From Myxococcales bacterium (GTDB lineage Bacteria; Myxococcota; Myxococcia; Myxococcales; Myxococcaceae), in the NCBI GenBank assembly GCA_030681895.1, contig JAUXRI010000107.1, positions 1-64,000 of the forward strand: a DNA stretch of 64,000 nucleotides, read 5' to 3'. Positions 36,488-52,752 of the stretch are shown in pieces; position 1 is the stretch's first letter; the number at the start of each line of letters is the position of its first letter. The notes under the pieces are model-generated. The model saw nothing but the letters and a program-made list of their open reading frames with translations. It did no database searches and was not told the origin of the DNA. The translations under genes and the position numbers were made by a program.

Positions 36488-36510
36488 GGTGGTTGGCTTT
36501 CGAAAAGTCG

Positions 36511-38232: not shown

Positions 38233-38406
38233 AAATGCGCTCCGGGAATTGACGCCGCGCAACTGCGCTGGCGTTTCGGTGGTGTGACGAGTGTCGTGAC
38301 GCGTGAATGACTGCGATTGATCAACGTGACCCAGGGCCTCGCTGAGCGACGAGCCGACCTCGCGAGCGCGCCGTCCGTGTGAATGTTCGACCTTGCCCAT
38401 GGTGCT

Positions 38407-38433
38407 GCCTCCCGCGACGTCACGACGGGAGGC
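38407..38433. terminator. GC-rich hairpin, possible terminator
   Basis: GCCTCCCG and CGGGAGGC form a perfect 8-bp stem with an 11-base loop. It lies 200 bases downstream of the DUF1801 stop on the minus strand and about 175 bases upstream of the OmpA start. No T-tract follows on either strand, so it may instead be a leader hairpin. Confidence 0.35.
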
Positions 38434-38473
38434 GACCTGTGCGACGGCCATGCCGTGCTCGTGGTGCGCGGGC

Positions 38474-38493
38474 TGTCGGGTGATCACCCGACA
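38474..38493. promoter_or_regulatory. 20-bp perfect palindrome, candidate operator
   Basis: TGTCGGGTGA followed directly by its reverse complement TCACCCGACA. A spacer-free 20-bp palindrome is rarely expected by chance in 64 kb even at this GC. It is about 240 bases upstream of the OmpA-like start and is a good candidate site for a dimeric regulator. Confidence 0.5.
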
Positions 38494-38631
38494 AGCGGTC
38501 ATCGGGGTGACGCGCGCGACGAGTGCGACGCATGCCGAGCGCGTTCGTCGAGCCGTCTACTTCAGCTCAGGGTTCGATCAGTCGCGTGTGCTGCGGCGAG
38601 GAAGGCGTGAGAACGCTCAGCGATGAGGCTC

Positions 38632-39030
38632 CTACTTGAGTCTCTCGAGCAGGCCTCTGCGTTTGACGATGTTCTTGTAGTCCCACTGAGTGTCGCGCGC
38701 CTTCTTGAGCCAGCGGCGCAGGTCACGAAGCTTGATGTCATCGGGACGAACGAAGCGCGCTTCAGCTGCCTTGAAGCTGCCCTCGGGCGTGAGGCCCGGT
38801 TCGTCGAAGGACTGGCCGCTCCAGAACAGAAGCCGCGGGCCGCTCTTCAGCACGCTGTACCCGACGACCGGGTTGCCATCGAGAAACCACACCGGGTGCC
38901 CGTGCCAGACTTTGTTCTCGGCTTCGGGGAGCACGCTGCAGATTTCGTCGCGCAGCACGTCGAGCACGGCACGAACGGCACCAGCGTGAGCGCGGTGGTA
39001 GCTCGCGACGGTTGCAGGCGCTTTGGTCAT
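38632..39030 (-). CDS. DUF1801 (YdhG-like) protein
   Basis: 132 residues; the ATG at 39030 has an excellent ribosome site (GGAGGAGAAGG). The sequence matches DUF1801/YdhG-like proteins: AVRAVLDVLRDEICSVLPEA, KVWHGHPVWFLDGNPVVGY, GPRLLFWSGQSFDEPGL. Members are small alpha/beta cytoplasmic proteins; some relatives (Fra/YdhG) are described as iron chaperones, but the role here is unknown. The gene is divergent from the allantoinase operon, with a 155-bp shared upstream region. Confidence 0.85.
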   Translation of the reverse strand: MTKAPATVASYHRAHAGAVRAVLDVLRDEICSVLPEAENKVWHGHPVWFLDGNPVVGYSVLKSGPRLLFWSGQSFDEPGLTPEGSFKAAEARFVRPDDIKLRDLRRWLKKARDTQWDYKNIVKRRGLLERLK

Positions 39031-39185
39031 CGTGCCTTCTCCTCCTGGTGTCCGGTCGCGCAGACGTCGAGTTGCGTGGCGCGCCATCTTCTCGATTCTG
39101 GCTGATTGAGCAAGACGGCCCGAGCGAGTCGACGACTCCATTGCAGCGACTGACGAGCGCGGCCTCCTGAGCGAGGATGCGCGCC

Positions 39186-40550
39186 ATGGCTCACCCTGAG
39201 GTGTTGATTCGTGGTCGTCGCGTGCTGCTCCCCACCGGCGTCGCGCCCGCCATGCTGCACATCACCGACGGCCGCATCACCGCTGTCACGGCCTTCGACG
39301 CGCCGGCGCCGAGTGACGTGCCCCGCATCGACGCGAACGACCTGCTCGTCACGCCGGGCATCGTCGACTCGCACGTGCACATCAACGAGCCGGGCCGCAC
39401 CGAGTGGGAAGGGTTCCTCACCGCGACGCAGGCCGCAGCGGCAGGAGGCATCACCACCGTCGTCGACATGCCGCTCAACTCGATTCCTCCCACGACGTCA
39501 GCCGACAACGCCGAGACGAAGCGCGACGCCCTGCGCGACCAACTGCACGTCAACGTCGCCTTCTGGGGTGGCGTGGTGCCGGGCAATACGAAAGACCTGC
39601 CGGGCCTGCAGCGCTTCGGCGTTCCCGGGTGCAAGTGCTTCACCTGTCACTCGGGCGTCGACGAGTTCCCGATGTCGACGCGCGCCGACCTCGAGCTGGC
39701 GATGCCGGTGCTGCGGGACCTGGGACGCGTCTTGCTCGTGCACGCCGAAGCGCCGGGTCCGCTCGAGCGCGCCGAGCTCGAGGTCGCCGGGCAGGACCCG
39801 CGCCTCTACCAGACGTACCTGCGCTCGCGCCCGAAGTCGGCAGAGGACGAAGCCGTCGCGATGGTCATCGAGCTCTCGCGCAAGCACCGCTGCCCGGCGC
39901 ACATCGTCCATCTCTCGAGCGCGTCGGCGATTCCGCTCCTGCGTGCGGCGCAGGCCGAGGGCGTGCCGGTGACGGCCGAGACGTGTCTGCACTACCTGAC
40001 GTTCACTGCCGAAGAAATTCCTGACGGCGCAACGCACTACAAGTGCGCGCCACCGATTCGTGAGGCGTCCAACCGTGAGCTGTTGTGGAAGGGATTGGAG
40101 GAGGGCGTCATCGGGATGATCGTGTCTGACCATTCTCCCTGCACGCCGGCGCTCAAGAAGCCCGAGACGGGCGACTTCCTCGGCGCGTGGGGCGGCATCG
40201 CGGGCCTGCAGCTCGGGCTCTCGGTGTTGTGGACGCAGGCGCAGGCGCGCGGCGTGTCGCTCGAGCAGATGGTGCGGTGGAACACGCTGGGCCCCGCGAA
40301 GCTGGCAGGGCTGGCAGCGCGAAAGGGACAGCTCGCCGCCGGCTTCGACGCCGACCTCGTCTTCTGGGACGACGCCGCGAGCTTCGTGGTGACGCCCGAG
40401 TCGATTCGGCACAAGCACCACGTCACGCCGTACGCGGGGCGAACGCTGAAGGGCGTGGTGCACCAGACGTTCGTCGGTGGCCGGCTCGCGTACTCGAAGA
40501 CTGGTGGACTCGCGAAGCCGGCTGGACGGTTCGAGGCCGTGGGCCGATGA
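39186..40550 (+). CDS. allB: Allantoinase
   Basis: 454 residues from the ATG at 39186 (GAGG 9 bases upstream); an ATG at 39177 is in frame. It belongs to the cyclic amidohydrolase superfamily. Metal ligands are visible: SHVHINEPGRTEWEGF (His63, His65), the Lys expected to be carboxylated in PGCKCF, His in VHLSS, and Asp in VSDHSPC. The EPGRTEWEG phrase is typical of allantoinase rather than dihydroorotase or hydantoinase. The enzyme opens allantoin to allantoate in purine-nitrogen salvage. It is the first gene of an overlapping operon whose other members have no obvious link to purines. Confidence 0.88.
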   Translation: MAHPEVLIRGRRVLLPTGVAPAMLHITDGRITAVTAFDAPAPSDVPRIDANDLLVTPGIVDSHVHINEPGRTEWEGFLTATQAAAAGGITTVVDMPLNSIPPTTSADNAETKRDALRDQLHVNVAFWGGVVPGNTKDLPGLQRFGVPGCKCFTCHSGVDEFPMSTRADLELAMPVLRDLGRVLLVHAEAPGPLERAELEVAGQDPRLYQTYLRSRPKSAEDEAVAMVIELSRKHRCPAHIVHLSSASAIPLLRAAQAEGVPVTAETCLHYLTFTAEEIPDGATHYKCAPPIREASNRELLWKGLEEGVIGMIVSDHSPCTPALKKPETGDFLGAWGGIAGLQLGLSVLWTQAQARGVSLEQMVRWNTLGPAKLAGLAARKGQLAAGFDADLVFWDDAASFVVTPESIRHKHHVTPYAGRTLKGVVHQTFVGGRLAYSKTGGLAKPAGRFEAVGR

Positions 40551-41014
40551 GAGCGGCGCTGCTGGCGATGGCGTTGACGGTGGCTCCGGCCGCGCACGCC
40601 GCCGAGTTCGGAATCAGCGTCGGAGCCCTCGAGGTGATTCTGCTCCCGCTCGCGCATGGCGGCTTCTATCCGTACATCGGTGGCTCCATCGGAGTGCCGC
40701 TCGTCGACCGGCTGACCTTCATCGCCTCGCTCTCCATCGAGTACAGCTTCGACCAGGGCCGCGGTGGTTTCGTCGGCGTCACCACCCTCGACTACGCGCT
40801 GGGTGAGCGTGTCGGCCTCGACCTGAACGTCGCGTTCATTCACGACCAGCCGGGGCTGCAGTTCTCGCAGGCGCAGTTCTTCCTCGGCGCGGGCCCGGGC
40901 GTGACCATCTACCTCGGCAAGTTTGCGCTCTCGCCGTTCCTCAACTTCTTCGCCGGCCTCACGGTGCCTGGCGCCAGCATCGTGCCCGGCATCAACCTCT
41001 CGCGGGCGTTCTGA
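40547..41014 (+). CDS. Small exported outer-membrane-like protein
   Basis: 155 residues. The start overlaps the allantoinase stop as ATGA and this gene's own stop overlaps the next start, so translation is probably coupled. A Sec signal (ALLAMALTVAPAAHA, cleavage after AHA) precedes Gly-rich amphipathic strands (GFYPYIGGSIGVPL, GAGPGVTIYLG, PFLNFFAGLTVPG). The size fits an eight-stranded barrel or half of one. No family recognised. Position between a purine enzyme and a radical-SAM enzyme is unexplained. Confidence 0.7.
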   Translation: MRAALLAMALTVAPAAHAAEFGISVGALEVILLPLAHGGFYPYIGGSIGVPLVDRLTFIASLSIEYSFDQGRGGFVGVTTLDYALGERVGLDLNVAFIHDQPGLQFSQAQFFLGAGPGVTIYLGKFALSPFLNFFAGLTVPGASIVPGINLSRAF

Positions 41015-42528
41015 TGGCTGACGTCGTCCTCTGCACGCTGAACGCGAAGTTCATCCACGCGTCGCTGGGGCTTCGGTACCTGTTCGCGAACATGGGCGAG
41101 CTGAAGGCGCGCACGGTGCTGCGTGAGTTCGACATCAACCAGCCCGTGCTCGAGGTCGTCGAAGCGCTGCTGGCGGAGCGCCCACGCCTCATCGGCTTCG
41201 GGGTGTACGTGTGGAACGTCGACGAGACGCTCGCGGTGGTGCGGGTGCTCAAGACGCTGCAGCCTGACGTCGTCATCGTGCTCGGTGGCCCCGAGGTCAG
41301 CCACGAGACGCGCGGTCAGCCCATCGTCGAAGCGGCCGACCACGTCATCTGTGGAGAAGCCGATCTCGCCTTCGCTGCGCTGTGCCGCCAACGGCTCTCG
41401 GGTGAAGTCCCCGCGAAGGTCCTCAGCGCGCCACTGCCGGACTTGAACGCAGTGACGCTCCCGTGGAGCGAGTACTCCGATGACGACCTCGCGAACCGGC
41501 TGCTCTACGTCGAGGCGTCGCGCGGCTGCCCGTACCGGTGCGAGTTCTGTCTGTCGTCGCTCGACGAGAAGGTGCGCACGCTGCCGGAAGGCGCGTTCTT
41601 CGACGCGATGGAGACCCTGCTCCGCCGGGGCGCGCGGAACTTCAAGTTCGTCGACCGCACGTTCAACCTCGACGTGAAGCAGAGCCTGCGCATCCTCGAG
41701 TTCTTTCATTCTCGGCTGACGCCCGGGTTGTTCCTTCACTTCGAGCTGGTGCCCGACCGGCTGCCGGAGGCGCTGCGTGAGGTCATCAGTCGTTTCCCTC
41801 CCGGCGTTTTGCAGTTCGAGGTCGGAGTGCAGACGCTGAACCTGGACGTCGAGAAGCTGATCAGCCGACGACAGGACCACGCGAAGCTCGAGGACAACCT
41901 GCGCTTCCTCGCGCAGCACACCGCCGCCCACGTGCACGTCGACCTCATCGTCGGGTTGCCCGGAGAAGACGTGTCGAGCTTCGCGCGTGGCTTCGATGCG
42001 CTGGTGAAGCTGAAGCCCAACGAGATTCAGGTCGGTATGCTCAAGCGCCTCAAAGGCACGCCCATCGCCCGGCACGAGGGGCCGCATGGGCTCGTCTACA
42101 GCCCGCTGCCGCCGTTCGAGATTCTGCGGACTGGGGTGCTGACGTTCGACGAGGTGAACGCGCTCCGGCGCTTCGCGCGCACGTGGGACGCGTTCGGGAA
42201 CAGCGGGCACTTCGTGCTGACGATGCGGCGCGTGCTCGATGAGGCGTCGTCGGCGTTCGAGGTGGTGCAGCGGCTCAGTGAGCATCTGCACGCGCACGAC
42301 GTCGGCAGCAGCGGCGTGGCGTTGACGCGCAAGTTCCGGCTGCTGTTCGGCTTCCTCACCGAGGGGCTCGGGTGGAATCGCACCGCCGCGGCCGAGTCGT
42401 TGTTCGACGACTACCGGCGCTCCGGGAAGACGGACCGGCCGAGCTGGCTCGCGAGCCTTCCTGACGCCGAGCTGGCCGAGGCGGTGCGCGTCGACTTCAG
42501 CGCGCGACAGTCACGTCACCGGAGCTGA
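41014..42528 (+). CDS. B12-binding-domain radical SAM protein (DUF4080-type)
   Basis: 504 residues, starting in a TGATG overlap with the previous stop. Residues ~1-140 form a cobalamin-binding-like Rossmann domain (DVVLCTLNAKFIHASLGLRY, VIVLGGPEVS); the canonical His of B12 binding is not obvious. The radical SAM core starts with ASRGCPYRCEFCLSS, giving the C-x3-C-x2-C cluster motif. The C-terminal ~150 residues fit a DUF4080-type domain. Such enzymes use SAM radicals, often with cobalamin, for methyl transfer or other modification; the substrate is unknown. Third gene of the 39186-42528 operon. Confidence 0.85.
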   Translation: MADVVLCTLNAKFIHASLGLRYLFANMGELKARTVLREFDINQPVLEVVEALLAERPRLIGFGVYVWNVDETLAVVRVLKTLQPDVVIVLGGPEVSHETRGQPIVEAADHVICGEADLAFAALCRQRLSGEVPAKVLSAPLPDLNAVTLPWSEYSDDDLANRLLYVEASRGCPYRCEFCLSSLDEKVRTLPEGAFFDAMETLLRRGARNFKFVDRTFNLDVKQSLRILEFFHSRLTPGLFLHFELVPDRLPEALREVISRFPPGVLQFEVGVQTLNLDVEKLISRRQDHAKLEDNLRFLAQHTAAHVHVDLIVGLPGEDVSSFARGFDALVKLKPNEIQVGMLKRLKGTPIARHEGPHGLVYSPLPPFEILRTGVLTFDEVNALRRFARTWDAFGNSGHFVLTMRRVLDEASSAFEVVQRLSEHLHAHDVGSSGVALTRKFRLLFGFLTEGLGWNRTAAAESLFDDYRRSGKTDRPSWLASLPDAELAEAVRVDFSARQSRHRS

Positions 42529-42549
42529 TCAGTCTTCACTTCGTGCGCC

Positions 42550-43725
42550 TCACTGAGGCGAACGGTCGTTCGTGACGAGTGCGCGCCACGCGTCGAGCTG
42601 ACGTCGAGCCTGCGCGGCCAGGGCAACATCATCGGGGTCACCAGTTCGCCGGGCGCGTCGCGCCCAGTTCTCGCTCCGTCGCTCGAGACACTCGTCGGAA
42701 TCGCAGTACGCCGTCTCGGTCAGCGCCTTCAGCTCCGTCGCCGCGAGGTCGCCCGTCGTCCATTCGACCCAGTCACCGTCTTGCCGCAGCAGTCGCACGA
42801 TCTTCGGCGCGTGCCCGTCGCTCGATGGCGCGAGGGACAGATACCGACGGTACATCGCTCGCGCGGCGCGCTCATGCTCGAGCCGGCGTAGCTCCGCGAG
42901 CCGGGAAGCAATGGCGGGTTGGTGTGGCGCAGGCTCGAGGCGAGAGAGCCTGGCGTGCGCGGCCGCCACGTGCGCCAGGCAGTCGAGCCGGAGCGGATCA
43001 GCCTTTCGACAGGCATCACCCTGCTCGATGACCGTTTCCCAATGGTCTTTCGCGACGAGGCGCTCCAGCACGAGTGCCGGGTCGAGCCAGCCGCCGATGG
43101 CCGGGCGTGGCAGTGAGGGGATGCGCCTGGGCCTGGTCGTCGTCGTTCTTCCGTCGTCTTGCCAGTAGACCAGCGGCTCGAAGTGCACCTCGCGCACTGG
43201 CTTCACGTTCACGTATCGGCCGTCTCCGAGACTCGTCACCACGGGCCAGCACGCCTCGGTCGGCGGGAAGACAGCGGGTAGAGGCTGCTCCGATTCCGTC
43301 TGGTTTGCGCGCTCCGTCACCTCACCGACGTTGGCGGAGGAGCGGCTCGCGAACCCGAGACCGGAAACTGCCACGCCGCAGACGAGGGCGACGAGGCCCG
43401 CCACAAGTGCCCGTCGAGCCGTCGGTGGTCGGGCTGAACGCGAGACGAGCTGCGCGTCTTCGCTCTTCAGGTACAGCGCCCATGGATAGCCGAGCTCGAG
43501 CACCGCCTTCACGAACTCGCTGCGCAGCTCTGGCGTGAGCTTCGCCGTGCACGCGTCGTCGTCGAGTACGCCGATGAACTCGAGCGCCGTTTTTGATCGC
43601 TCGTCGGCAGTGCCGTCGCGGTGGCGTGACGACAGGAGGGCAAGTGCTCGGTCGATGCGGGGCCGTGCGGCTGGCTCCAACCCGGTCTCGGCGAGCAGTG
43701 ATCGTTCAACGACCCGCGCAGTCAT
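42550..43725 (-). CDS. Single-span membrane protein, paralogue of 22937-24253
   Basis: 391 residues. A cytoplasmic N-domain of ~100 residues contains LGYPWALYLKSED, followed by one membrane helix (ALVAGLVALVCGVAVSGLGF). The presumed periplasmic part has Cys at GDACRKADPLRLDC and an Arg/Glu-rich helix. The layout and the YPWAL phrase match the protein at 22937-24253. Family unknown. It converges on the radical-SAM gene with 21 bases between stops and starts divergently from the degraded gene at 43833. Confidence 0.65.
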   Translation of the reverse strand: MTARVVERSLLAETGLEPAARPRIDRALALLSSRHRDGTADERSKTALEFIGVLDDDACTAKLTPELRSEFVKAVLELGYPWALYLKSEDAQLVSRSARPPTARRALVAGLVALVCGVAVSGLGFASRSSANVGEVTERANQTESEQPLPAVFPPTEACWPVVTSLGDGRYVNVKPVREVHFEPLVYWQDDGRTTTTRPRRIPSLPRPAIGGWLDPALVLERLVAKDHWETVIEQGDACRKADPLRLDCLAHVAAAHARLSRLEPAPHQPAIASRLAELRRLEHERAARAMYRRYLSLAPSSDGHAPKIVRLLRQDGDWVEWTTGDLAATELKALTETAYCDSDECLERRSENWARRARRTGDPDDVALAAQARRQLDAWRALVTNDRSPQ

Positions 43726-43832
43726 CTTCGTCCAGCGTAGGTCGCGGTCCGTTCAGGCGTCGAGGCCGCGGCGCAGCTCGGAGCGGCGACACCGGAATGA
43801 CGAAGCGTCGCGGCGCTCCTTCTCAAGTAGTC

Positions 43833-44100
43833 ATGAACAATCGCTCACAGCTGCCGCTGCTGGTGGTCGTCTCAGTCGTTGTTTTCGTTGGTCGCGTTCA
43901 GGCGCAGACCTGCACGACGCCGATGGTCTGAGCGCCAGGTGCAGTACCCCAACGTGTGCGGGCGAATGAGCCGCGTGCTGGGCGGCGGAACGTACACGGC
44001 GACCGTCGAGTACCGCATCAACGGCACCGTCATCTCGTCGCCGGCAGCGGTCAGCTTCACGCAGCGGTCGCTCGTCGTGCACGTGCTTGGGAACAACTGA
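43833..44100 (+). pseudogene. Decayed gene for a small exported protein
   Basis: An ATG at 43833 opens a convincing Sec signal peptide (LPLLVVVSVVVFVGRVQAQ) that ends at a stop at 43931 after 32 residues. In the next frame the sequence continues plausibly (ERQVQYPNVCGRMSRVLGGG, then TATVEYRINGTVISS, ending VVHVLGNN at 44100). The join is near 43918-43935. Taken together this looks like one ~88-residue secreted beta-rich protein broken by a frameshift. The flanks up to the antiporter gene (44101-44245) hold nothing else recognisable. Confidence 0.4.
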
Positions 44101-44245
44101 GCTGTGCCGTCGATGCAGGCGCCGCCGGAGCCCGGCATCGGAGCTGTTCCCGGCCTCGACGACCCTCGCCCGTCTCGACCGAATCGTCTCGTTCGCGGTT
44201 CGGAATCGATTGACTCCGCACGCCCTCGCCTCAAGGAAGGCACTC

Positions 44246-45610
44246 ATGCGGCACGCTCCTCTTCGACCGAAGACCCTCGCCCGCCTCGCAGGCCTCGCCG
44301 TCTTTGCCGCGATGCTCCCGTCGTTCGCGTCAGAGAGCGGCGGCCACTCGGACCCCGCAGCGCCCATCGTGCTCGCGCTCGCCATCATCCTGGTGCTGGC
44401 GAAGGTCGGCGGAGACCTCGCCTCGCGCTTCAAACAACCGGCCGTGCTGGGTGAGCTGCTGGTGGGCGTGCTGCTGGGCAACCTGTCGCTGCTGACCGAG
44501 GCCATCACTGGCACTCCGCTTCGCTACTTCGAGACCATCTCCACCGACCTCCACCTCGACATGCTCTCGCGGCTGGGCGTCATCATCTTGCTCTTCGAGG
44601 TCGGCCTCGAGTCGACCGTCGGCCAGATGATGAAGGTCGGGCTCTCGGCGTTGCTGGTCGCGACCGTCGGCGTGGTGACGCCGTTCGCGCTCGGCTGGCT
44701 CGCCTCGATGTGGCTGCTGCCGACGCACAGCGTGTACGTGCACATCTTCATCGGCGCGACGCTGACGGCCACCAGCGTCGGCATCACCGCGCGCGTGCTG
44801 CAGGACCTCGGCAAGAGTCAGCTCACCGAGTCGCGCATCATCCTCGGCGCTGCCGTCATCGACGACGTGATGGGCCTCGTCATCCTCGCGGTGGTGACGG
44901 GCGTCATCGGCGCTGCGAACGCGGGCACGACGCTCGCGGTCAGTGACATCGCCATCACGCTGCTCAAAGCCGTCGGCTTCCTGGTGGGCTCGCTGGTCAT
45001 CGGCCGGTGGCTCTCGCCGCGCATGTTCCACATCGCCTCGTTGCTCAAGGCGCGCATGGTGTTGCTCGCGTTCGGGCTTGGCTTCTGCTTCCTGCTGTCG
45101 TGGCTCGCCGACTTCATCGGGCTGGCGCCCATCGTTGGAGCGTTCGCGGCCGGCCTCATTCTCGAAGACGTTCACTACCAGGACATCAAGGACCGCGACC
45201 ACCACACGCTCGAAGAGCTCATTCACCCCATCTCGTACTTCCTGGTGCCCATCTTCTTCGTCCTGATGGGCATGCGGACGGACCTGAAGGCCTTCGTCGC
45301 GCCCGGCGTGTTGTCGCTGGCGGGCGTGCTGGTGGTGGTGGCCATCGGCGGCAAGCTGGTCGCTGGCCTCGGTGCGCTGGGCAAGGGCATCGACCGTCTC
45401 AGCATCGGCATCGGCATGGTGCCCCGCGGCGAGGTCGGCCTCATCTTCGCCAGCATCGGCGCCGGGCTGACCATCAAGGGCGAGAAGGTCGTCGACGCGA
45501 GCGTGTTCTCGGCCGTCGTGGTGATGGTCATCGTGACGACGATGATGACGCCGCCCTTCCTCAAGTGGAGCATGTCGCGCGGCGAGAAGAAGAAGGCCGC
45601 GGCCGTCTGA
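44246..45610 (+). CDS. CPA2-family cation:proton antiporter
   Basis: 454 residues from the ATG at 44246 (AAGGAAGG upstream). About twelve membrane helices; after a possible signal/first helix the Na+/H+ exchanger fold is clear: KQPAVLGELLVGVLLGNLSL, DMLSRLGVIILLFEVGLEST, ATSVGITARVLQDLGK, then GAAVIDDVMGL, whose paired Asp is the ion-binding site, and GMVPRGEVGLIFASIGAGL near the end. There is no C-terminal TrkA/RCK domain. It should exchange Na+ or K+ for protons in pH and ion homeostasis. Confidence 0.92.
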   Translation: MRHAPLRPKTLARLAGLAVFAAMLPSFASESGGHSDPAAPIVLALAIILVLAKVGGDLASRFKQPAVLGELLVGVLLGNLSLLTEAITGTPLRYFETISTDLHLDMLSRLGVIILLFEVGLESTVGQMMKVGLSALLVATVGVVTPFALGWLASMWLLPTHSVYVHIFIGATLTATSVGITARVLQDLGKSQLTESRIILGAAVIDDVMGLVILAVVTGVIGAANAGTTLAVSDIAITLLKAVGFLVGSLVIGRWLSPRMFHIASLLKARMVLLAFGLGFCFLLSWLADFIGLAPIVGAFAAGLILEDVHYQDIKDRDHHTLEELIHPISYFLVPIFFVLMGMRTDLKAFVAPGVLSLAGVLVVVAIGGKLVAGLGALGKGIDRLSIGIGMVPRGEVGLIFASIGAGLTIKGEKVVDASVFSAVVVMVIVTTMMTPPFLKWSMSRGEKKKAAAV

Positions 45611-45622
45611 TCGCCGTGCCCT

Positions 45623-45634
45623 GACACGGGTGTC
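45623..45634. promoter_or_regulatory. GACAC-GG-GTGTC dyad
   Basis: Inverted repeat GACAC/GTGTC with a 2-base spacer, just after the antiporter stop and about 90 bases upstream of the lipoprotein at 45720. Its half-sites are those of the GTGTCGACAC elements at 6-9 kb in reversed order. Function unproven. Confidence 0.2.
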
Positions 45635-45719
45635 GCCTCAAATTCCCGAGGGTGCCTCGCGCGAAGTCGGCGCGAACACGGGGACGTTCGCTGGCCCGGT
45701 GCGTGCTCCAGGAGCGTGC

Positions 45720-46055
45720 ATGCGCTCTCTTCTCGTCATCGCCCTCTGCCTCGCCGCCTCTGCCTGCCGCCTCGACACCACCATCGACGCGAAGGACTAC
45801 ACGCAGACCTGCACTGCCAACGCCGACTGTGTGCTGGTCGCCGAGGGTGACGCGTGCAGCCCGTGCGGAGGCTGTCAGACGAGCGCCATCAACGTCAGCG
45901 CGAAGGCGTCGTTCGACCGCGACGTCACCACGCTGAAGAACTCGTGCCCGCCGCGACTGTTCCAGCCGCCCGTCGCGTGCGCCGCCGCAGCGTGCCTGCA
46001 GCCCGAGGCGTTCTGCAACGCGGGCACCTGCGACTCGCGACCCGTGACCCGGTAG
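45720..46055 (+). CDS. Small Cys-rich lipoprotein
   Basis: 111 residues; GGAG 5 bases before the ATG at 45720. Signal and lipobox LAASAC (Cys16). The mature part has about ten Cys (QTCTANADC, CSPCGGC, NSCPP, CAAAAC, FCNAGTC), fitting a compact disulfide-bonded domain like those in myxobacterial 'C-x-D-C' lipoproteins. No function can be assigned. A strong stem-loop lies just downstream at 46081-46117. Confidence 0.75.
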   Translation: MRSLLVIALCLAASACRLDTTIDAKDYTQTCTANADCVLVAEGDACSPCGGCQTSAINVSAKASFDRDVTTLKNSCPPRLFQPPVACAAAACLQPEAFCNAGTCDSRPVTR

Positions 46056-46080
46056 GCGCATGGAGCGGTGATTTCGGGAG

Positions 46081-46117
46081 GTTCGCTCGTCTGCGCTCGA
46101 GGAGCGCACGGGCGAAC
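46081..46117. terminator. Two-part stem-loop downstream of the lipoprotein gene
   Basis: TGCGCTC/GAGCGCA form a 7-bp stem with a 3-base loop at 46092-46108; outside it GTTCGC (46081) pairs with GCGAAC (46112). No T-tract. It begins 26 bases after the stop at 46055, a good position for a transcript end or 3' stabiliser. Confidence 0.4.
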
Positions 46118-46170
46118 GCGACATCTGCGGGCTGGTGACCCTCCGTGGTGAACCCTGCCCGGAGCACCTC

Positions 46171-46818
46171 TTGAACTCCTGCCGAGCCCTGCTGTCCGTC
46201 TGCCTCGTCTCTGCGAGCTGCGCCTCGATTCCCGTGACGGGCGCCGCCGCGACGGGCGCGCCGCTCGAGGTGCTCGAGACGTCACAGACCTTCAACGTCA
46301 CCCGCAAGGTGAAGGTGGCCGAGGTGACCCATCGCGACCGCGTCGGGCGGAAGACCGGCACCTCTGAGGTGACCGAGAACCGGACCCGTCGCGTCACCGA
46401 GTACGACTGGAAGTTGATGCAGGGCGACCAGGGCGTCGACGAGAGCGACTTCTATCGCATCGGTGGAGACCTCGAGCGCAGCGCGCTGGTCGACGAGAAG
46501 CGCCGAGGCGCGGCGACGCTCCACACGCTTGGCGTGCTGACCATTCCCGTGGGCATCGCGCTCGCCGTCGCAGGCGTGCTGCTCGCGTACGTGCCGCTGC
46601 AGACCGTGACTGACCCCGACACCGGCATGCCGACGATGGCGCCCCTGCTGCCCTCGCTCTTTGGCTACGTGATGGTCGGCGCGGGCGGTCTGCTGGCGGG
46701 TGGGCTCGGCAGCATGCTGATCAACGCGGGCAACGAGCTGCTCGCGCCGGGAGTGCGGCTGCTCCCACGCGAAGAGGCCGAGGCGGTCGCCGCGAAGTAC
46801 AACGCCACGCTGAAGTGA
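46171..46818 (+). CDS. Lipoprotein with two membrane-spanning segments
   Basis: 215 residues from a TTG at 46171, preferred because GGAG lies 6 bases upstream and a lipobox follows at once (LVSASC, Cys17). Residues ~30-110 are charged and beta-like (NVTRKVKVAEVTHRDRVGRK). Two hydrophobic segments follow (LTIPVGIALAVAGVLLAYV, and FGYVMVGAGGLLAGGLGSML). The tail ends in a helical EEAEAVAAKYNATLK. A protein that is both lipidated and has two helices is unusual; a GTG at 46147 is another possible start. Family unknown. Confidence 0.6.
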   Translation: MNSCRALLSVCLVSASCASIPVTGAAATGAPLEVLETSQTFNVTRKVKVAEVTHRDRVGRKTGTSEVTENRTRRVTEYDWKLMQGDQGVDESDFYRIGGDLERSALVDEKRRGAATLHTLGVLTIPVGIALAVAGVLLAYVPLQTVTDPDTGMPTMAPLLPSLFGYVMVGAGGLLAGGLGSMLINAGNELLAPGVRLLPREEAEAVAAKYNATLK

Positions 46819-46875
46819 GTCGAGGTCGGTCCACTCCGCGCTGGCCTTGTGACGGCTGCCCGCTAACCTCGCGCC

Positions 46876-47763
46876 ATGCTCCGTCACCTTGCGCTCACGT
46901 TCCTGCTCGTCCTCTCTGGCTGCGCCACCACCTACAACGCGCGCTGGCTCGACCCTGCCGCGCCTGCCACGGCGGCGACGACGCAGACCGACGAGGCGAA
47001 GGCGCTGGTCGAGGCCGGGGACGCGGCGTGGGCCCAGCGAGAGGACGCCGCGAAGGTCCGTGAGGCCATCACGAAGTGGGAAGCCGCTGCGCAGCTGTGG
47101 ACCAACGGAGACCACGCGGCCCGGCTCTCGCGCGCGCACTACTTCCTCGGTGACTCGTTCGTCGCCGTCAGCGGTGACGCCGAGGCCCGTGACGCCGAAT
47201 ACAACGCGAGCCTGGAGTGGGCGGTGAAGGCGATGAAGCTGACCGCGCCCGACACCGTGAAGGACCTCGCGGCCGGTGTGCCCATGGTGACGGCCGTGAA
47301 GAAGGCGCCGAAAGAGGCCTCGGAAGCGTTGCTCTGGTACGCGTCGAGCCTCGGCAAGTGGGCCGCGATGCGCCGCGTCGGCACACGCCTCAAGTACAAG
47401 GACGAGCTCAAGGCCGTCATCGACCACGTCGCCGCCATCGACCCGTCCCAGCATGGCGCCACGCACCGCTGGCTCGCGACCTACGAAGCGCAGACCATCA
47501 ACATCCTCGGCGGCTCGGCGGAGCGCAGCGAGGAGCACTTCAAGAAGTCGCTCGAGATTGCGCCGAACTACGTCGGCACCAAGGTGCTGTGGGCCCAGTT
47601 CCTCTGCCCGAAGACGGGAAACCGCACGCTGGCGAAGAAGCTGCTCGAAGAGGCCATCGCCGCCGACCCCACGCTCGACGCGGGCAACGTCGCCGAGAAC
47701 AAGGCTGATCAACAGAAGGCGAAGGCGCTGCTCGCGAACTTCGACGCGCTGTTCGTGCTTTGA
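46876..47763 (+). CDS. TatT-family (TRAP-transporter-associated) lipoprotein
   Basis: 295 residues with lipobox LSGC (Cys16). The mature part is all-helical and matches the TatT component family: ALVEAGDAAWAQREDAAKV, ARLSRAHYFLGDSFVAVSG, ASLEWAVKAMKLTAPD, GATHRWLATYEAQTINI and ERSEEHFKKSLEIAPNY. In treponemes this fold works with TRAP transporter binding proteins as a periplasmic TPR-like trimer. No TRAP transporter genes lie nearby, so the partner here is unknown. Converges on the caspase operon with 9 bases between stops. Confidence 0.8.
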   Translation: MLRHLALTFLLVLSGCATTYNARWLDPAAPATAATTQTDEAKALVEAGDAAWAQREDAAKVREAITKWEAAAQLWTNGDHAARLSRAHYFLGDSFVAVSGDAEARDAEYNASLEWAVKAMKLTAPDTVKDLAAGVPMVTAVKKAPKEASEALLWYASSLGKWAAMRRVGTRLKYKDELKAVIDHVAAIDPSQHGATHRWLATYEAQTINILGGSAERSEEHFKKSLEIAPNYVGTKVLWAQFLCPKTGNRTLAKKLLEEAIAADPTLDAGNVAENKADQQKAKALLANFDALFVL

Positions 47764-47772
47764 AAGAGCGCC

Positions 47773-48066
47773 TTAGCGACACGCCGTCGCCAGCACGCCG
47801 TAGCGACGCTCGAGCACTTCTGCACACGACTGACAGTCGGTCGCAGCCTGGAAGTCCTGGTCCCAGCAGTTGACGTTCGAGGGCAGCACCCCGAAGTCGC
47901 GAATGAGCTGCTCCCGCGCGTTGGTGCACGTCGTCACGCAGTACGACCACGGCCCGGGCGCCGTCTTCACCGAGCTTCGTTGCACGCCTGTGTCTGGCCC
48001 GGCCTCGACGAACTCCGCGCGTCCACACCCCAGCACCAGCAGCATCAGCATCGTCAGTCGTCGCAT
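47773..48066 (-). CDS. Small Cys-containing lipoprotein of the caspase operon
   Basis: 97 residues. Signal with lipobox VLGC (Cys14). The mature ~83 residues have six Cys, in YCVTTC, VNCWDQD, DCQSC and the C-terminal ATAC. The phrase REQLIRDFGVLPSN resembles RQQLEQDFGVLPTT in the barrel part of the caspase-like protein encoded 32 bases upstream. It is the last gene of a four-gene minus-strand operon with the ECF sigma factor, the anti-sigma factor and the caspase. No known family; it could be a partner, inhibitor or substrate of the caspase (inference only). Confidence 0.65.
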   Translation of the reverse strand: MRRLTMLMLLVLGCGRAEFVEAGPDTGVQRSSVKTAPGPWSYCVTTCTNAREQLIRDFGVLPSNVNCWDQDFQAATDCQSCAEVLERRYGVLATACR

Positions 48067-48098
48067 GCCTGATGGACGAACGAGCCGACGGAAACCGG

Positions 48099-49646
48099 TC
48101 AGCGCGCGTCGCCAGCGAGCACGACGAGGCCAAGGTTGGCCGTCACGAAGTGCAACAGGCCGAACGAGCCGACCGCGAGCTGGTCTCCGACGTCGAGCTT
48201 GAGGCCGAGCGCCCCGAAGCTCCCCAGGCGGGCGAACGCCAGGAGCAGACCTGCGTCGACGGTGACCGCGGGAGCGAGCTCACGCCTGGCTCCAGCGCTG
48301 CCCGCACCCGAGAGGATGCCGATTGCCCCGCCGCCCACCGACACCGTGGCGCGAAGCTCCGACGAGCCCGAGATGAGCGTCGGCTCCCAGCTCACGGCGG
48401 TCGAGGCGGTGAACTCGGGGAAGACGAACGTGGTGGGCAGCACGCCGAAGTCCTGCTCGAGCTGCTGCCTCGTGCCGCGCGGAATCGACACGACGTACGA
48501 GGCCCGCAGCACCCGCCAGCCGAACGCGCTCGAGAAGAAGTGCGTGAAGTCGACCTGCGGCGCGACGCCGACCGTGAAGGTGTCGAGCGGCGCCACGCTC
48601 ACCATCACGCCCACCGCCTCGCGTCCGCGCAGCTGCGAAGGCCCCTTCGTCGGCAGCATGAGCGTGCCCACCAGCGTGAGGTCGGCCTCGGCGAGCGTCG
48701 TCGCGGTGTCTGGCTTCACCTGCACTTCCCGCGAGAACACCTGGCCGTCTTTGACCCGCCGCACGAGATACGGCCCCGGCACGAGCGCGAGGCGGAGCAC
48801 TTGTTCTCCCGGCGCTGCCTCGACGACCGTGATGCCCGTCGACAGCTGCACCACCTCGAGCGGCCCCTGCGTCTGCGCGACGACGAGCTGCGTGCCTGCC
48901 TTCGGCACCGTGGTGAGCACCACGTCCTGCCGGCCGCGAAGGCGAAGGTCGAAGCTCGGGTGCTGTGCCTCGCGGCTGCGCGTCGCGGTGTCTCGAATGG
49001 TGAGCCGGTTCGCGTAGGCGAAGGCCTCCGACAGCGTCACCTGCCCGTCGCCTGACGAGTCCGCCGCGCCGCGCAGGCCGCCGACGAGGTGATGGGTGAA
49101 GAAGCTCCCTTGCAGCACCTCGGCCTCGTGCGCGTCTTCGAGGCCCGAGCTCGCGGCGAGGAGCGCGGTGCCTTCACTCGAGAGCGCCGGCACGCCGACC
49201 TCGAACGGCTTCGTCGGCGTCAGTCCCTTCGCCTGCGTCCACCCACCGCCACGACACGCGTCGATGATGCCGATGCGCACGCCGGAGTTCGAATCGCCGA
49301 GCCGTTCCTTGAGCGTCGCGAGCGGGAGCGGCTTTCCACCCGGGTAGAGCGCGGCTTCGTCGGCGTGGCCTGAGTAATAGAAGACGAGGAGCCCATCGGC
49401 AGCGGCCTCGGTGCGGGCCTGCGCGAGGGCAGCGAGGACATCGTCGGGGCTCGCGTCGAGCAGCACGCGCACGTCGGACGCCGAGAAGCCGCCGCTCGTG
49501 CGAAGGACGTCGGCCAGGTTCTGCGCGTCGCGGTGCGCGAAGTGGAGCGGGGTGCGGCCTTCGATGGCTGCGTTCGAGCCGACCAGCACGGCGCGGCGGG
49601 CGGGCGTGGCGGCGGTGACGAGGCTGAGCACGAGGGCGCTCAGCAT
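48099..49646 (-). CDS. Exported caspase-like (C14) protein with C-terminal barrel-like domain
   Basis: 515 residues from the ATG at 49646, overlapping the anti-sigma stop as TGATG. A hydrophobic signal (LSALVLSLVTAATPA) leads straight into a caspase fold: AVLVGSNAA, RDAQNLADVLRT, then the catalytic pair in FYYSGHAD (His94) and GIIDACRGGG (Cys131). DSSGDGQVTLSE after the catalytic domain is an EF-hand-like calcium loop. Residues ~235-330 are a PEGA-like beta domain; the last ~190 residues look like an outer-membrane barrel of the myxobacterial type. Most bacterial caspases are cytoplasmic, so a signal peptide and barrel are unusual. Cleavage specificity is likely basic (Arg/Lys) or Asp but cannot be read from sequence. 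Confidence 0.85.
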   Translation of the reverse strand: MLSALVLSLVTAATPARRAVLVGSNAAIEGRTPLHFAHRDAQNLADVLRTSGGFSASDVRVLLDASPDDVLAALAQARTEAAADGLLVFYYSGHADEAALYPGGKPLPLATLKERLGDSNSGVRIGIIDACRGGGWTQAKGLTPTKPFEVGVPALSSEGTALLAASSGLEDAHEAEVLQGSFFTHHLVGGLRGAADSSGDGQVTLSEAFAYANRLTIRDTATRSREAQHPSFDLRLRGRQDVVLTTVPKAGTQLVVAQTQGPLEVVQLSTGITVVEAAPGEQVLRLALVPGPYLVRRVKDGQVFSREVQVKPDTATTLAEADLTLVGTLMLPTKGPSQLRGREAVGVMVSVAPLDTFTVGVAPQVDFTHFFSSAFGWRVLRASYVVSIPRGTRQQLEQDFGVLPTTFVFPEFTASTAVSWEPTLISGSSELRATVSVGGGAIGILSGAGSAGARRELAPAVTVDAGLLLAFARLGSFGALGLKLDVGDQLAVGSFGLLHFVTANLGLVVLAGDAR

Positions 49647-50293
49647 CACTTCCCCCCGGAGCGCAGCTCGAAGCGTCGGCACCAGACCGAGCCGCCGTCA
49701 CAGGTGTCGACGATGGCGGGCGTCACGGCCTCGTTCGAGAGCACCACCCACACCACGTCTCCGCCGGGAGCAGCGTCGAGCGTCCACGCGGGGGTCGTCG
49801 TCTCCTTCGTCACCGCCGCTTCGTACAACACCGTCTTCGAGGTCGCGTCGATGACGGTCACGCGCGTGAAGTGCTCGAGCACCACCTGGAAGCGCACCGC
49901 GTCACCGGGCCCGAGAGGTTCCCCGCGCCAGAGTGTGACGGTGTCACCGCGTTTCACCCACGCAGCCGCGGTCGGCGCGCCTTTCACGGTGAAGGCAGTG
50001 CGGGTGTGTTGCTTCGCGACATACCGACCCACAGCCCAGTGAGTCGCGGCCGCGAAGGGAATGGCCAACACGAGGTACAGGGGCACTGCCAGCCGAAGCC
50101 ACGGTGCCCGCCACCAGCGGGGAGCAGGCGCCTGACGCAACTCGAGCACGCGCGCCGGAATCGGAGCGGCCACCATCACCGCCTCGACGTGCGCCCGACA
50201 GGTGAGGCATCCGGCGACGTGCAGAATCACGTCGGCCGTCGGCTCACCGAGCGCGTGGCGGTCGAGCGCCAGGAACGAGGGATGTTCGGTCAC
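49646..50293 (-). CDS. Membrane anti-sigma factor with zinc-binding motif
   Basis: 215 residues from a GTG that overlaps the sigma-factor stop (GTGA). The cytoplasmic N-terminus holds His25-x3-Cys29-x2-Cys32 (HVAGCLTC), the zinc anti-sigma motif. One membrane helix lies at ~64-88 (WLRLAVPLYLVLAIPFAAAT). The ~125-residue periplasmic part is beta-rich (RGDTVTLWRGEPLGPGDAVR, TVLYEAAVTKETTT) and recalls DUF4384 domains, which accompany caspases in other bacteria. It should hold the ECF factor at the membrane until a periplasmic signal releases it. The next gene is the exported caspase, which acts in the same compartment as this domain. Confidence 0.82.
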   Translation of the reverse strand: MTEHPSFLALDRHALGEPTADVILHVAGCLTCRAHVEAVMVAAPIPARVLELRQAPAPRWWRAPWLRLAVPLYLVLAIPFAAATHWAVGRYVAKQHTRTAFTVKGAPTAAAWVKRGDTVTLWRGEPLGPGDAVRFQVVLEHFTRVTVIDATSKTVLYEAAVTKETTTPAWTLDAAPGGDVVWVVLSNEAVTPAIVDTCDGGSVWCRRFELRSGGK

Positions 50294-50766
50294 GACTGCA
50301 CCTCCTGGCGTTTCGCTGCGACGCGGTCATCGAAGCGGTTGAGGAGACGACGCACCGTGCGCTCCGAGATGCCCAGCACCTCGGCGGCTTCCGGTTGGGT
50401 GAGACCATCGACGCGCGAGAGCACCGCGACCTGCAATTCGTCGACGTCGGCGAGGGTGATCAACTGCTCCAGCACCTGACGATGCCCCGTCGCGGCTTCG
50501 AGATCGGCCGCCTGCGTCGCTTGAGGCACGGGCCGGTCCCGCATCGAGCGTTGTCTCAATCGGTCGATGCACAGATGCGTCGCCGTCTTGTACAGCCACG
50601 CCGTCGCGCCCCGCACGTCCCTCGGAGCGCGGCCCTGCCAGAACCTGATGAACACGTCTTGCGCCACGTCGTCGGCGTCATCGACGTCCTTCAAGACACG
50701 ACGGCACTTCTGCCGCACCAGAGGGAAATAGCGCCGCCACGCTGTTTGAACGTCCTCAACCGCCAC
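50290..50766 (-). CDS. ECF-type RNA polymerase sigma factor
   Basis: 158 residues from a GTG with AAGGAGG 7 bases upstream. Region 2 is clear (YFPLVRQKCRRVLKDVDDAD, DVAQDVFIRFWQ, GATAWLYKTATHLCIDRLRQ) and region 4 ends with the helix-turn-helix LTQPEAAEVLGISERTVRRL. No region 3, as in ECF factors. It heads an operon with its anti-sigma factor, the caspase and a lipoprotein; stops and starts overlap throughout. It probably transcribes its own operon. The DUF937 gene starts divergently 161 bases away and could be a target. Confidence 0.92.
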   Translation of the reverse strand: MAVEDVQTAWRRYFPLVRQKCRRVLKDVDDADDVAQDVFIRFWQGRAPRDVRGATAWLYKTATHLCIDRLRQRSMRDRPVPQATQAADLEAATGHRQVLEQLITLADVDELQVAVLSRVDGLTQPEAAEVLGISERTVRRLLNRFDDRVAAKRQEVQS

Positions 50767-50927
50767 CCGACGGCCTCCTTCTCACTGCAGGACGAACGAG
50801 CCTCGCATTTCCGGCCACCACCGAAACTGACTTGCGCGCGTCGACGAGAATCGGCTCCACGCGTTGTGGCGCCTGTTACGTCACCGCTTCCTGCAGTGGT
50901 GCCCCGCGGTTCCTGATGGAGAACGAC

Positions 50928-51698
50928 ATGTCTTCAATCGTTGAGACGATGATGGGTGAGCTCGGTGGTGGAACGCTGCAGCACATTGGAGCCGCGGTCG
51001 GCGCGACGCCGGACCAGACGAAGTCGATGATGGGCGCCGCGTTGCCCGCGCTCATCTCGGGCCTGGCGCAGAACACCGCGAAGCCCGAGGGCGCTGCATC
51101 GCTCGCCGGTGCGCTCGACCGGGACCATGGGCCGAACCTGATGGATCAGCTCGGACCCATCGCGGGACAGCTCCTCGGTGGGGCCGGTGGCAGTGGTGGT
51201 GGCGGCGGCCTCGGCGCGGCGCTCGGTGGCCTGCTGGGTGGCGGTGGTGGTGGTGGCCTCGGCGGCATGCTCGGCAACGCTGGCGGAGGCGGCGCTTCGG
51301 GTGGTGGTCTCGCCGCGCTCCTGCCCGCGGCGATGGCGATGATGAACGGCGGCGGTGACCAGGCCGCGATGCCCAAAGCGCTCAACGGGGCGGGCATTCT
51401 CAGTCACGTCTTCGGCGGCAATCAGCAGCAGGTCGTCGCGAACGCGGCCCAGGCCAGCGGCGTCGACTCGGGCATGATGATGAAGTTCCTCGTGATGGTC
51501 GCGCCGATGGTGATGAGCGCGCTCGGTACGATGAAGCAGAAGAACCACCTCGACGCGAATGGCCTCGCCGGCATGCTGAAGCAGGAGCAGACGCAGCTCG
51601 GTGGTGCGCCGGCGGAGAGCGGCTTCGGCGCAGGCGACCTCATGAAGGTCGGCTCGGCCATCGCCAGCTCAGGCCTTCTCGGCAAGCTGTTCGGCTGA
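50928..51698 (+). CDS. DUF937 (YidB/DUF937-like) glycine-rich protein
   Basis: 256 residues from the ATG at 50928, which has GGAG 6 bases upstream; an ATG at 50916 is also in frame. It matches DUF937: TLQHIGAAVGATPDQTKSMM, ALPALISGLAQNT near the start and VDSGMMMKFLVMVAPMVMSA, AGMLKQEQTQL later. Between them is a ~70-residue Gly-rich linker (runs of G, GGLGGMLGNAGGGG). Soluble, no signal peptide. Function unknown in the family. Divergent from the ECF operon. Confidence 0.8.
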   Translation: MSSIVETMMGELGGGTLQHIGAAVGATPDQTKSMMGAALPALISGLAQNTAKPEGAASLAGALDRDHGPNLMDQLGPIAGQLLGGAGGSGGGGGLGAALGGLLGGGGGGGLGGMLGNAGGGGASGGGLAALLPAAMAMMNGGGDQAAMPKALNGAGILSHVFGGNQQQVVANAAQASGVDSGMMMKFLVMVAPMVMSALGTMKQKNHLDANGLAGMLKQEQTQLGGAPAESGFGAGDLMKVGSAIASSGLLGKLFG

Positions 51699-51708
51699 AC
51701 GTTCGCGC

Positions 51709-52752
51709 TCACGGCGCCCGGGCACTGCACGACACCGTCACGACGAGGCTCGACGGCCGGGCCACCGCGCGAGCGCAGACGGGGCCAGTCAACGCGAGCT
51801 CTCCGTTCTCGCGGTCAGTCCATCGCCACCCGCCGACGCCGCCGTCATCGGTCGGCACCTCGGCGCCCTCGAACGTCACCCGAATACCGCCGTCGGAGTC
51901 AGGCACGGAGCTGGTGAGGAACGAGCACGCGCCGACCTGGTCGCGAATGGTGCGGAAGGCGAGCTGGAGCTCGGCGGGTGACTGGGCCGAGTAGAAGCCC
52001 TGGCTCCCGGTGCGGGGTCTCGAGCCGGCCAGCGACATCGCCTGGAGCGAAGCCCGCAAGCTCGCGTCGTCAGCGATGCCGATGACGTAGGTGGGAATGC
52101 CGTCGGTGGCGGCGCGGCGCAGCTCGGTGAGCGTGTCGGCGAGCGGGCTCGACGTGCAGGTCGGCTCGCCATCGGTGGCCAGCACCATCGCGCGCGCCGA
52201 GTTCCCCGCGCGGCGTGCCCGCAGCACCTGGCCAGCAGCGCCGAGCGCCGCTTCAGTCGGCGTCGGGCCCTCGGGCCGCAACGAGCGAAGGTTCGACACC
52301 AACAGCGCGACGTTGCCGCGCGCAGGCCAGATTCCCGCCTGCGGGGGAATGACACAGGGCTCGCCAATGCTGATGGGGTACGCGAGCCCGCCCAGCTGCA
52401 TGGTCCGGTCGACCTGCGGCAACGTCGCTTCGAGCGAGGCCACCACCGCCTCCCACCGCGTCTGGGTGCTCGAGATGAGCGCGTCCATCGAGCAGGAGCG
52501 GTCGAGCACCAGCTTCACCACGGGCTCCGCGGGGCTGAGGGAGAACGTGCCGTCGAGGCAGGGTTTGGGCACGAAGCCCGCGTCGATGAGCCCCGCGTCG
52601 AACCCCGCGTCGAGGCCTGCGTCCACCCCTGCGTCGCGGCTCCCGGCGTCACGACCGGCGTCGACGGTGACGGGCGGTGGCAGGGTGAAGGTCACGACCT
52701 CGGTGCGCCCACACGCGATGCTCATCAGACCCAGCCACACGAGACGTCGCAT
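51709..52752 (-). CDS. VWA-domain lipoprotein
   Basis: 347 residues with lipobox MSIAC (Cys14). A linker of Asp-Ala-Gly repeats (DAGVDAGLDAGFDAG, ~32-58) is followed by a von Willebrand A-like domain: LVLDRSCSMDAL carries the MIDAS motif D-x-S-x-S, a Thr is expected near PEGPTPTEAAL, and LATDGEPTC supplies the Asp. The C-terminal ~80 residues are beta-rich with Cys. Such domains bind protein ligands through a metal ion. Surface-exposed by inference. Confidence 0.85.
   Translation of the reverse strand: MRRLVWLGLMSIACGRTEVVTFTLPPPVTVDAGRDAGSRDAGVDAGLDAGFDAGLIDAGFVPKPCLDGTFSLSPAEPVVKLVLDRSCSMDALISSTQTRWEAVVASLEATLPQVDRTMQLGGLAYPISIGEPCVIPPQAGIWPARGNVALLVSNLRSLRPEGPTPTEAALGAAGQVLRARRAGNSARAMVLATDGEPTCTSSPLADTLTELRRAATDGIPTYVIGIADDASLRASLQAMSLAGSRPRTGSQGFYSAQSPAELQLAFRTIRDQVGACSFLTSSVPDSDGGIRVTFEGAEVPTDDGGVGGWRWTDRENGELALTGPVCARAVARPSSLVVTVSCSARAP

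Follow-up and report, generated by a model that had tools for sequence, protein, structure and literature searches.

A recurrent sigma factor, anti-sigma factor and caspase module of myxobacteria as a possible envelope-stress switch

In 2012, Asplund-Samuelsson and colleagues reported sigma-70 genes in the operons of four of the five metacaspases of Myxococcus xanthus, and sigma/metacaspase operons also in Anaeromyxobacter, Haliangium, Sorangium, Ralstonia and Fibrobacter (PMC3501461). We analyzed such a locus in a Myxococcales bacterium (assembly GCA_030681895.1). It lies in the first 64,000 nucleotides of contig JAUXRI010000107.1, here referred to as the window, where genes for a sigma factor of the extracytoplasmic function (ECF) type, a membrane anti-sigma factor, a caspase-family protein with a predicted export signal and a small lipoprotein follow one another. 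The M. xanthus operons are very probably the same module, and the section of PMC3501461 that deals with them mentions neither an anti-sigma factor nor export, a promoter or a mechanism. The author of an earlier note on this DNA knew of no described circuit of this exact form. Sigma-metacaspase operons have thus been known since 2012, but a membrane anti-sigma factor with an exported caspase, or the promoter, was not found described in the open-licence PubMed Central literature.

Several other systems bring caspase-like proteases and ECF factors together. In type III-E CRISPR systems, according to the parts of PMC10028731 available to us, the protease Csx29 cleaves Csx30, a protein that binds an ECF factor (CASP-sigma) and thereby inhibits it; as here, the protease has a caspase fold (CHAT), and there it controls the sigma factor by cutting the inhibitor. 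The Csx29 complex as presented in those parts is RNA-guided and non-secreted, whereas the window caspase has an export signal and its partner is a membrane anti-sigma factor; the neighbourhoods read showed no CRISPR part, though no search aimed at CRISPR was made in them. The same parts of that paper name the DegS/RseA/sigma-E system, in which, as is proposed here, an ECF factor is held by a membrane anti-sigma factor and a periplasmic protease is involved. The protease of the window is of the cysteine type, is predicted to sit on an outer-membrane barrel and is encoded in the same operon. DegS, in contrast, belongs to the serine proteases and has its anchor in the inner membrane. EACC1- and EACC2-caspase systems, in the accessible portions of PMC7159879 and PMC8195603, likewise have caspase genes with variable C-terminal domains, and some EACC2 neighbourhoods contain an ECF gene; the window caspase scores 71.5 with the EACC1-type profile NF047832, under the cut-off of 140. 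What we had of PMC8999054 and PMC8195603 describes or proposes ECF54 factors alongside CHAT proteins, and ECF factors in the neighbourhoods of EACC2-caspases. Finally, the available part of a survey counts 23 cyanobacterial orthocaspases fused to DUF4384 (PMC8283722); there the two domains share one chain, whereas here the DUF4384-like domain belongs to the neighbouring anti-sigma factor.

Composition and recurrence of the module

All four genes are on the minus strand and lie where the earlier note had placed them, with both overlaps and the gap that it gave. The sigma gene (50290..50766, 158 amino acids) matches Sigma70_r2 (3.9e-15) and Sigma70_r4_2 (1.8e-8) in a Pfam search and TIGR02937 above its cut-off; its product is a short protein with sigma regions 2 and 4 only, as in ECF (group IV) factors. 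Its stop codon overlaps the start of the anti-sigma gene (49646..50293, 215 amino acids) in GTGA at 50290-50293, and the anti-sigma stop overlaps the ATG of the caspase gene (48099..49646, 515 amino acids from this ATG) in TGATG. After a gap of 32 bases from the caspase stop to the next ATG, the lipoprotein gene (47773..48066, 97 amino acids) follows.

The same arrangement recurs within the source genome (9.8 Mb in 352 contigs, completeness 87.85). Eleven Peptidase_C14 matches were found there, together with a twelfth caspase that Pfam missed and that was found via its anti-sigma factor. At 10 of these 12 caspase loci, a sigma gene and an anti-sigma gene lie just upstream on the same strand, and each of these ten sigma genes counts among the genome's 81 Sigma70_r2 matches. 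Given 81 such matches in 9.8 Mb, about 0.06 of twelve loci would have one on the same strand within 1.2 kb upstream by chance; the association of the three genes is therefore not due to chance. The locus on contig C282 has an additional gene between anti-sigma factor and caspase; by eye, the repeat protein that it encodes is NHL-like. Both exceptions are on contig C70 (locus L013, positions 32000-50950). These caspase genes lie about 7 kb from each other, surrounded by genes for other exported-looking proteins, and neither has a sigma or an anti-sigma gene upstream. A profile of the anti-sigma periplasmic domain (A3) gave eight matches in the source genome, all of them adjoining a caspase; the more diverged anti-sigma factors on contigs C310 and C197 were not matched by it. 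Across the class, a profile of the anti-sigma domain was matched in 103 of 116 genomes.

We also scanned named genome contigs with the caspase and examined the best 80 of 162 loci, a sample biased towards the window type. Their labels are mostly Myxococcales, Myxococcaceae, Archangium, Pyxidicoccus, Corallococcus, Nannocystis and Deltaproteobacteria, with some Fibrobacter and Chitinivibrionales. One record, titled as a Klebsiella pneumoniae metagenome-assembled genome (L106, CAMAWH010000006.1), holds a typical module of the myxobacterial type, and its label looks wrong. A sigma gene was found within 1200 bases at 64 of the 72 loci that have at least 1200 bases upstream, and at three more among the eight shorter ones. 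Thirteen of the 80 loci were dropped (eight with at least 1200 bases upstream and five with less) and 67 were kept. Among these, the gap between sigma and anti-sigma genes is at most 15 bases in 66 and that between anti-sigma and caspase genes in 62; exact 4-base overlaps occur in 52 and 39 loci, counts that lean towards overlap because a script chose the start codons nearest to it. The pairwise distances of the three proteins correlate in 76 modules (r 0.85-0.87, reached in 0 of 1000 permutations) and in nine modules of the source genome (0.46, 0.71 and 0.45; 23, 12 and 37 of 1000 permutations), so the three genes have largely travelled together. In a further set of 30 loci, a caspase lies downstream in 24, none does so in four, and in one (L178) it stands upstream of the sigma gene; the last locus (L177) is a weak match. 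Thus, this is a real, conserved and multiplied three-gene module, often present in several copies per genome in myxobacteria and their relatives.

The earlier note had described an operon of four genes and suggested that the conservation of their order be checked. The order sigma, anti-sigma and caspase is conserved, whereas the lipoprotein is restricted to a lineage and has its own copy of a promoter-like element.

Predicted features of the anti-sigma factor and the caspase

The window anti-sigma factor carries HVAGCLTC, and HxxxCxxC is present in 58 of 76 relatives. In the Pfam search neither zf-HC2 nor DUF4384 (PF14326) was matched by the window protein, DUF4384 not even up to an E-value of 1; among 40 aligned members, zf-HC2 was matched in 14 and DUF4384 in 10. 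The resemblance to DUF4384 noted earlier is therefore justified at the level of the family. The structure model (mean predicted local distance difference test score, pLDDT, 87.7; predicted template-modelling score 0.54) consists of helices, among them a long one at residues 64-95, a flexible linker at 95-103 (pLDDT below 50) and an immunoglobulin-like beta domain from residue 108. From this model we read helix 64-95 as membrane-spanning, and the beta domain is predicted to be periplasmic.

The window caspase matches Peptidase_C14 (9.2e-12), has the caspase fold of this peptidase family, and in a profile comparison resembles metacaspases along the first 80-90 residues of its caspase domain (3.5e-8). 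His94 (codon 49365..49367) and Cys131 (49254..49256), the sole cysteine of the protein, are kept in 76 of 76 aligned caspases. An EF-hand-like pattern lies at residues 196-207 (49026..49061) and recurs in 42 of 76 relatives, with 0.03 expected from shuffled sequences. In the structure model, the caspase domain is joined by a beta domain and by eight long strands (residues 342-512, 48111..48623) that fit an outer-membrane barrel, as which the C-terminal region is predicted. The catalytic pair and the EF-hand-like loop thus stand as the earlier note had described them, and the export signal and barrel-like C-terminus find support from prediction. D40 is present in 76 and D129 in 75 of the 76 aligned caspases; we take these two to be the acidic S1 pocket residues of subfamily C14B. 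By analogy with this subfamily, cleavage after Lys or Arg (a basic P1 residue) is predicted.

Promoter-like elements and the lipoprotein gene

A dyad of TGGCC and CGTC at a near-fixed distance was found in 7 of the 12 nearest regions upstream of sigma genes, against 3 or 4 in ten shuffled sets. In the form TGGCCGG-N16-CGTC, it stands exactly in the window (50791..50817, minus strand, 24 bases before the sigma GTG) and in eight relatives, and relaxed in two more (10 of 67 related upstream regions). Since the dyad was derived from regions upstream of sigma genes, counts there are circular, and only copies before the next gene are independent. The exact element does occur in L071 and L073 before the gene after the caspase, ending 8 bases 5' of the lipoprotein ATG, and in L081 before another gene that follows the caspase. 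The gene in L081 (element region 7430-7510) is a different small one, encoding 190 amino acids with a hydrophobic N-terminus. The second target of the sigma factor may thus differ between species.

In the window, the second copy (48101-48075, minus strand) differs by one base (TGACCGG), inside the caspase stop codon, and also ends 8 bases before the lipoprotein ATG. The 64 kb contain 11 matches to the pattern against 5.74 expected, and ten of them, this copy included, have one mismatch; the weight of the copy therefore rests on its position. As 24 of its 27 bases sit within the 32-base gap, the lipoprotein gene probably also has a transcript of its own. Elements before both the sigma and the lipoprotein genes suggest autoregulation and one local target, and the short distance from element to ATG suggests leaderless transcripts. 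According to the parts of PMC8103513 available to us, autoregulation, CGT as the -10 element and AAC as the -35 element are all usual for ECF factors; the -35 element here is not of the AAC kind. The idea in the earlier note that the ECF regulon would include its own operon is supported at the level of the motif only, by the ECF-like promoter element before the operon. Upstream, the divergent gene at 50832-51698 (plus strand) encodes a DUF937 protein and shares the promoter region with the sigma operon. Beyond it, 51709-52752 (minus strand) encodes a von Willebrand A protein whose resemblance to the gliding lipoprotein CglB is weak and stays below the cut-off.

The lipoprotein is small and cysteine-rich, and no family was matched in profile searches. 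It has 11 homologues with identities of 65-91%, none with a Pfam domain. In the downstream DNA of 20 relatives it was found in L071 and, diverged, in L073, while L076 ends inside its caspase. Its residues 41-64 have a (K/R)xQLxxDFGVLP-like stretch in common with barrel residues 384-407 (12 of 24 identical), and the barrel side of this stretch recurs in L071, L072, L074, L075 and L076.

Proposed mechanism and its alternatives

On the basis of sequence and structure models, we consider it rather probable that the module is a self-activating envelope-stress switch, which would deploy a Lys/Arg-specific caspase. The predicted periplasmic beta domain of the anti-sigma factor would sense a signal in the envelope. 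Once freed from the anti-sigma factor, the sigma factor would transcribe the lipoprotein gene as well as its own operon, and the exported caspase would place a protease in the periplasm on the predicted barrel. Several observations weigh against this. No nearby sigma gene was found at 8 of the 72 loci, and one clade appears to have lost the caspase domain, which means that the output need not be a caspase everywhere. The relatives with the promoter element are all in the nearest clade, and among 53 upstream regions from a broader sample no dyad rose above shuffles. A genome-wide regulon based on the promoter pattern was rejected, as the pattern gave 32 matches against 33 for a reversed control; the credible targets are therefore local. 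The barrel is a reading of the model and not a match to a solved barrel; the list of similar folds was filled by caspases, so this part was barely compared with solved barrels. Moreover, 7 of 76 caspases fail the hydrophobic-core test for an export signal, at least two of them visibly because of the start codon chosen.

The junction of linker and beta domain in the anti-sigma factor carries a candidate cleavage site, Lys104-Gly105 (codons 49979..49984, minus strand). The Gly is present in all 76 aligned anti-sigma factors, and the preceding residue is Lys in 67, Arg in 3, Met in 5 and Ser in 1. Among the first caspase-less cases, L170, L172 and L184 were without Lys-Gly and L174 had it. With a profile from which the Lys-Gly columns were left out (A4), we then collected 89 anti-sigma loci, namely 30 top matches and 59 hand-picked among the matches listed, with L306 left out (L220 is the same place as L172, and L221 the same as L170). 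Lys/Arg-Gly is present in 63 of the 63 loci with a caspase downstream and in 22 of the 26 without one in 1.0-2.1 kb; the four that lack it form one clade. A strict dependence of the motif on a neighbouring caspase is thus rejected, and a Fisher p of 0.006 for motif against caspase is not valid, the rows being related. Twenty-one of the 22 loci carry TR[IS]KG and are all from one genus (g23), and the other, L295, is also without a sigma gene. In all eight g23 loci read (L224, L231, L237, L247, L265, L270, L273 and L275), an exported protein of 202-206 amino acids stands in the place of the caspase, seven of them with the same 4-base overlap. Because a profile of these proteins finds the C-terminal domain of sister caspases (E-values of 4e-34 for L263, 4e-21 for L144 and 2e-12 for the own-genome caspase of L017), it appears most simply that the caspase domain was lost while the barrel and otherwise the module were kept. 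In g23 the motif would thus have outlasted the caspase. Caspases from elsewhere in those genomes might act on it in trans, or its role may be structural.

These findings bear on a more far-reaching possibility, which we regard as doubtful though worth serious attention: the caspase would itself be the trigger, an outer-membrane receptor whose periplasmic protease cuts the anti-sigma factor at Lys104-Gly105, after which further proteolysis would free the sigma factor in a self-amplifying way. That a caspase built into the receptor links the outer membrane to transcription in this way, in many parallel channels per genome, is an equally tentative proposal. Lys/Arg-Gly at the junction in 70 of 76 anti-sigma factors is what it would lead one to expect, as is the complete occurrence of the motif at caspase loci and its absence from the caspase-less clade of four and from L184. 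In the parts available to us, C14B members are said to cut after basic residues (PMC6426788, PMC5756287), and the cutting of Csx30 by Csx29 offers a precedent for proteolysis of an ECF factor inhibitor (PMC10028731). However, most caspase-less loci keep the motif, nearly all of them in a single genus, and the motif may have a structural role. The five anti-sigma factors with Met and the one with Ser also have normal caspase partners: a changed S1 pocket opposite these six was considered and rejected, D40 and D129 being unchanged there.

The replacement of the caspase in g23 by an exported homologue of its C-terminal domain, about 204 amino acids long and found at every locus read, would fit the barrel as the real partner of the anti-sigma factor, as receptor or ligand, and the caspase domain as a dispensable add-on that trims the barrel or its cargo. 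In 25 aligned proteins, however, it is the caspase domain that is constant and the C-terminal region that varies, and we judge this explanation improbable. Unrelated genes can also share operons, and the co-transcribed genes might act in separate processes; the recurrence in diverged paralogues of one genome, the tight packing, the correlated distances and the fact that every A3 match of the source genome adjoins a caspase make mere neighbourhood highly improbable.

To our knowledge, bacterial caspases have mostly been studied as enzymes of the cell interior, and few of their substrates are known. The module described here is predicted to place a caspase in the envelope and ties it to one named regulator, in ten copies in the source genome. 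Each copy offers one candidate cleavage site, which makes the role of a myxobacterial caspase directly testable, and the clade that appears to have lost the caspase domain and kept the barrel provides a natural control. Surface stress would likely turn on the unit and, with it, a protease from the family that serves programmed cell death in animals.

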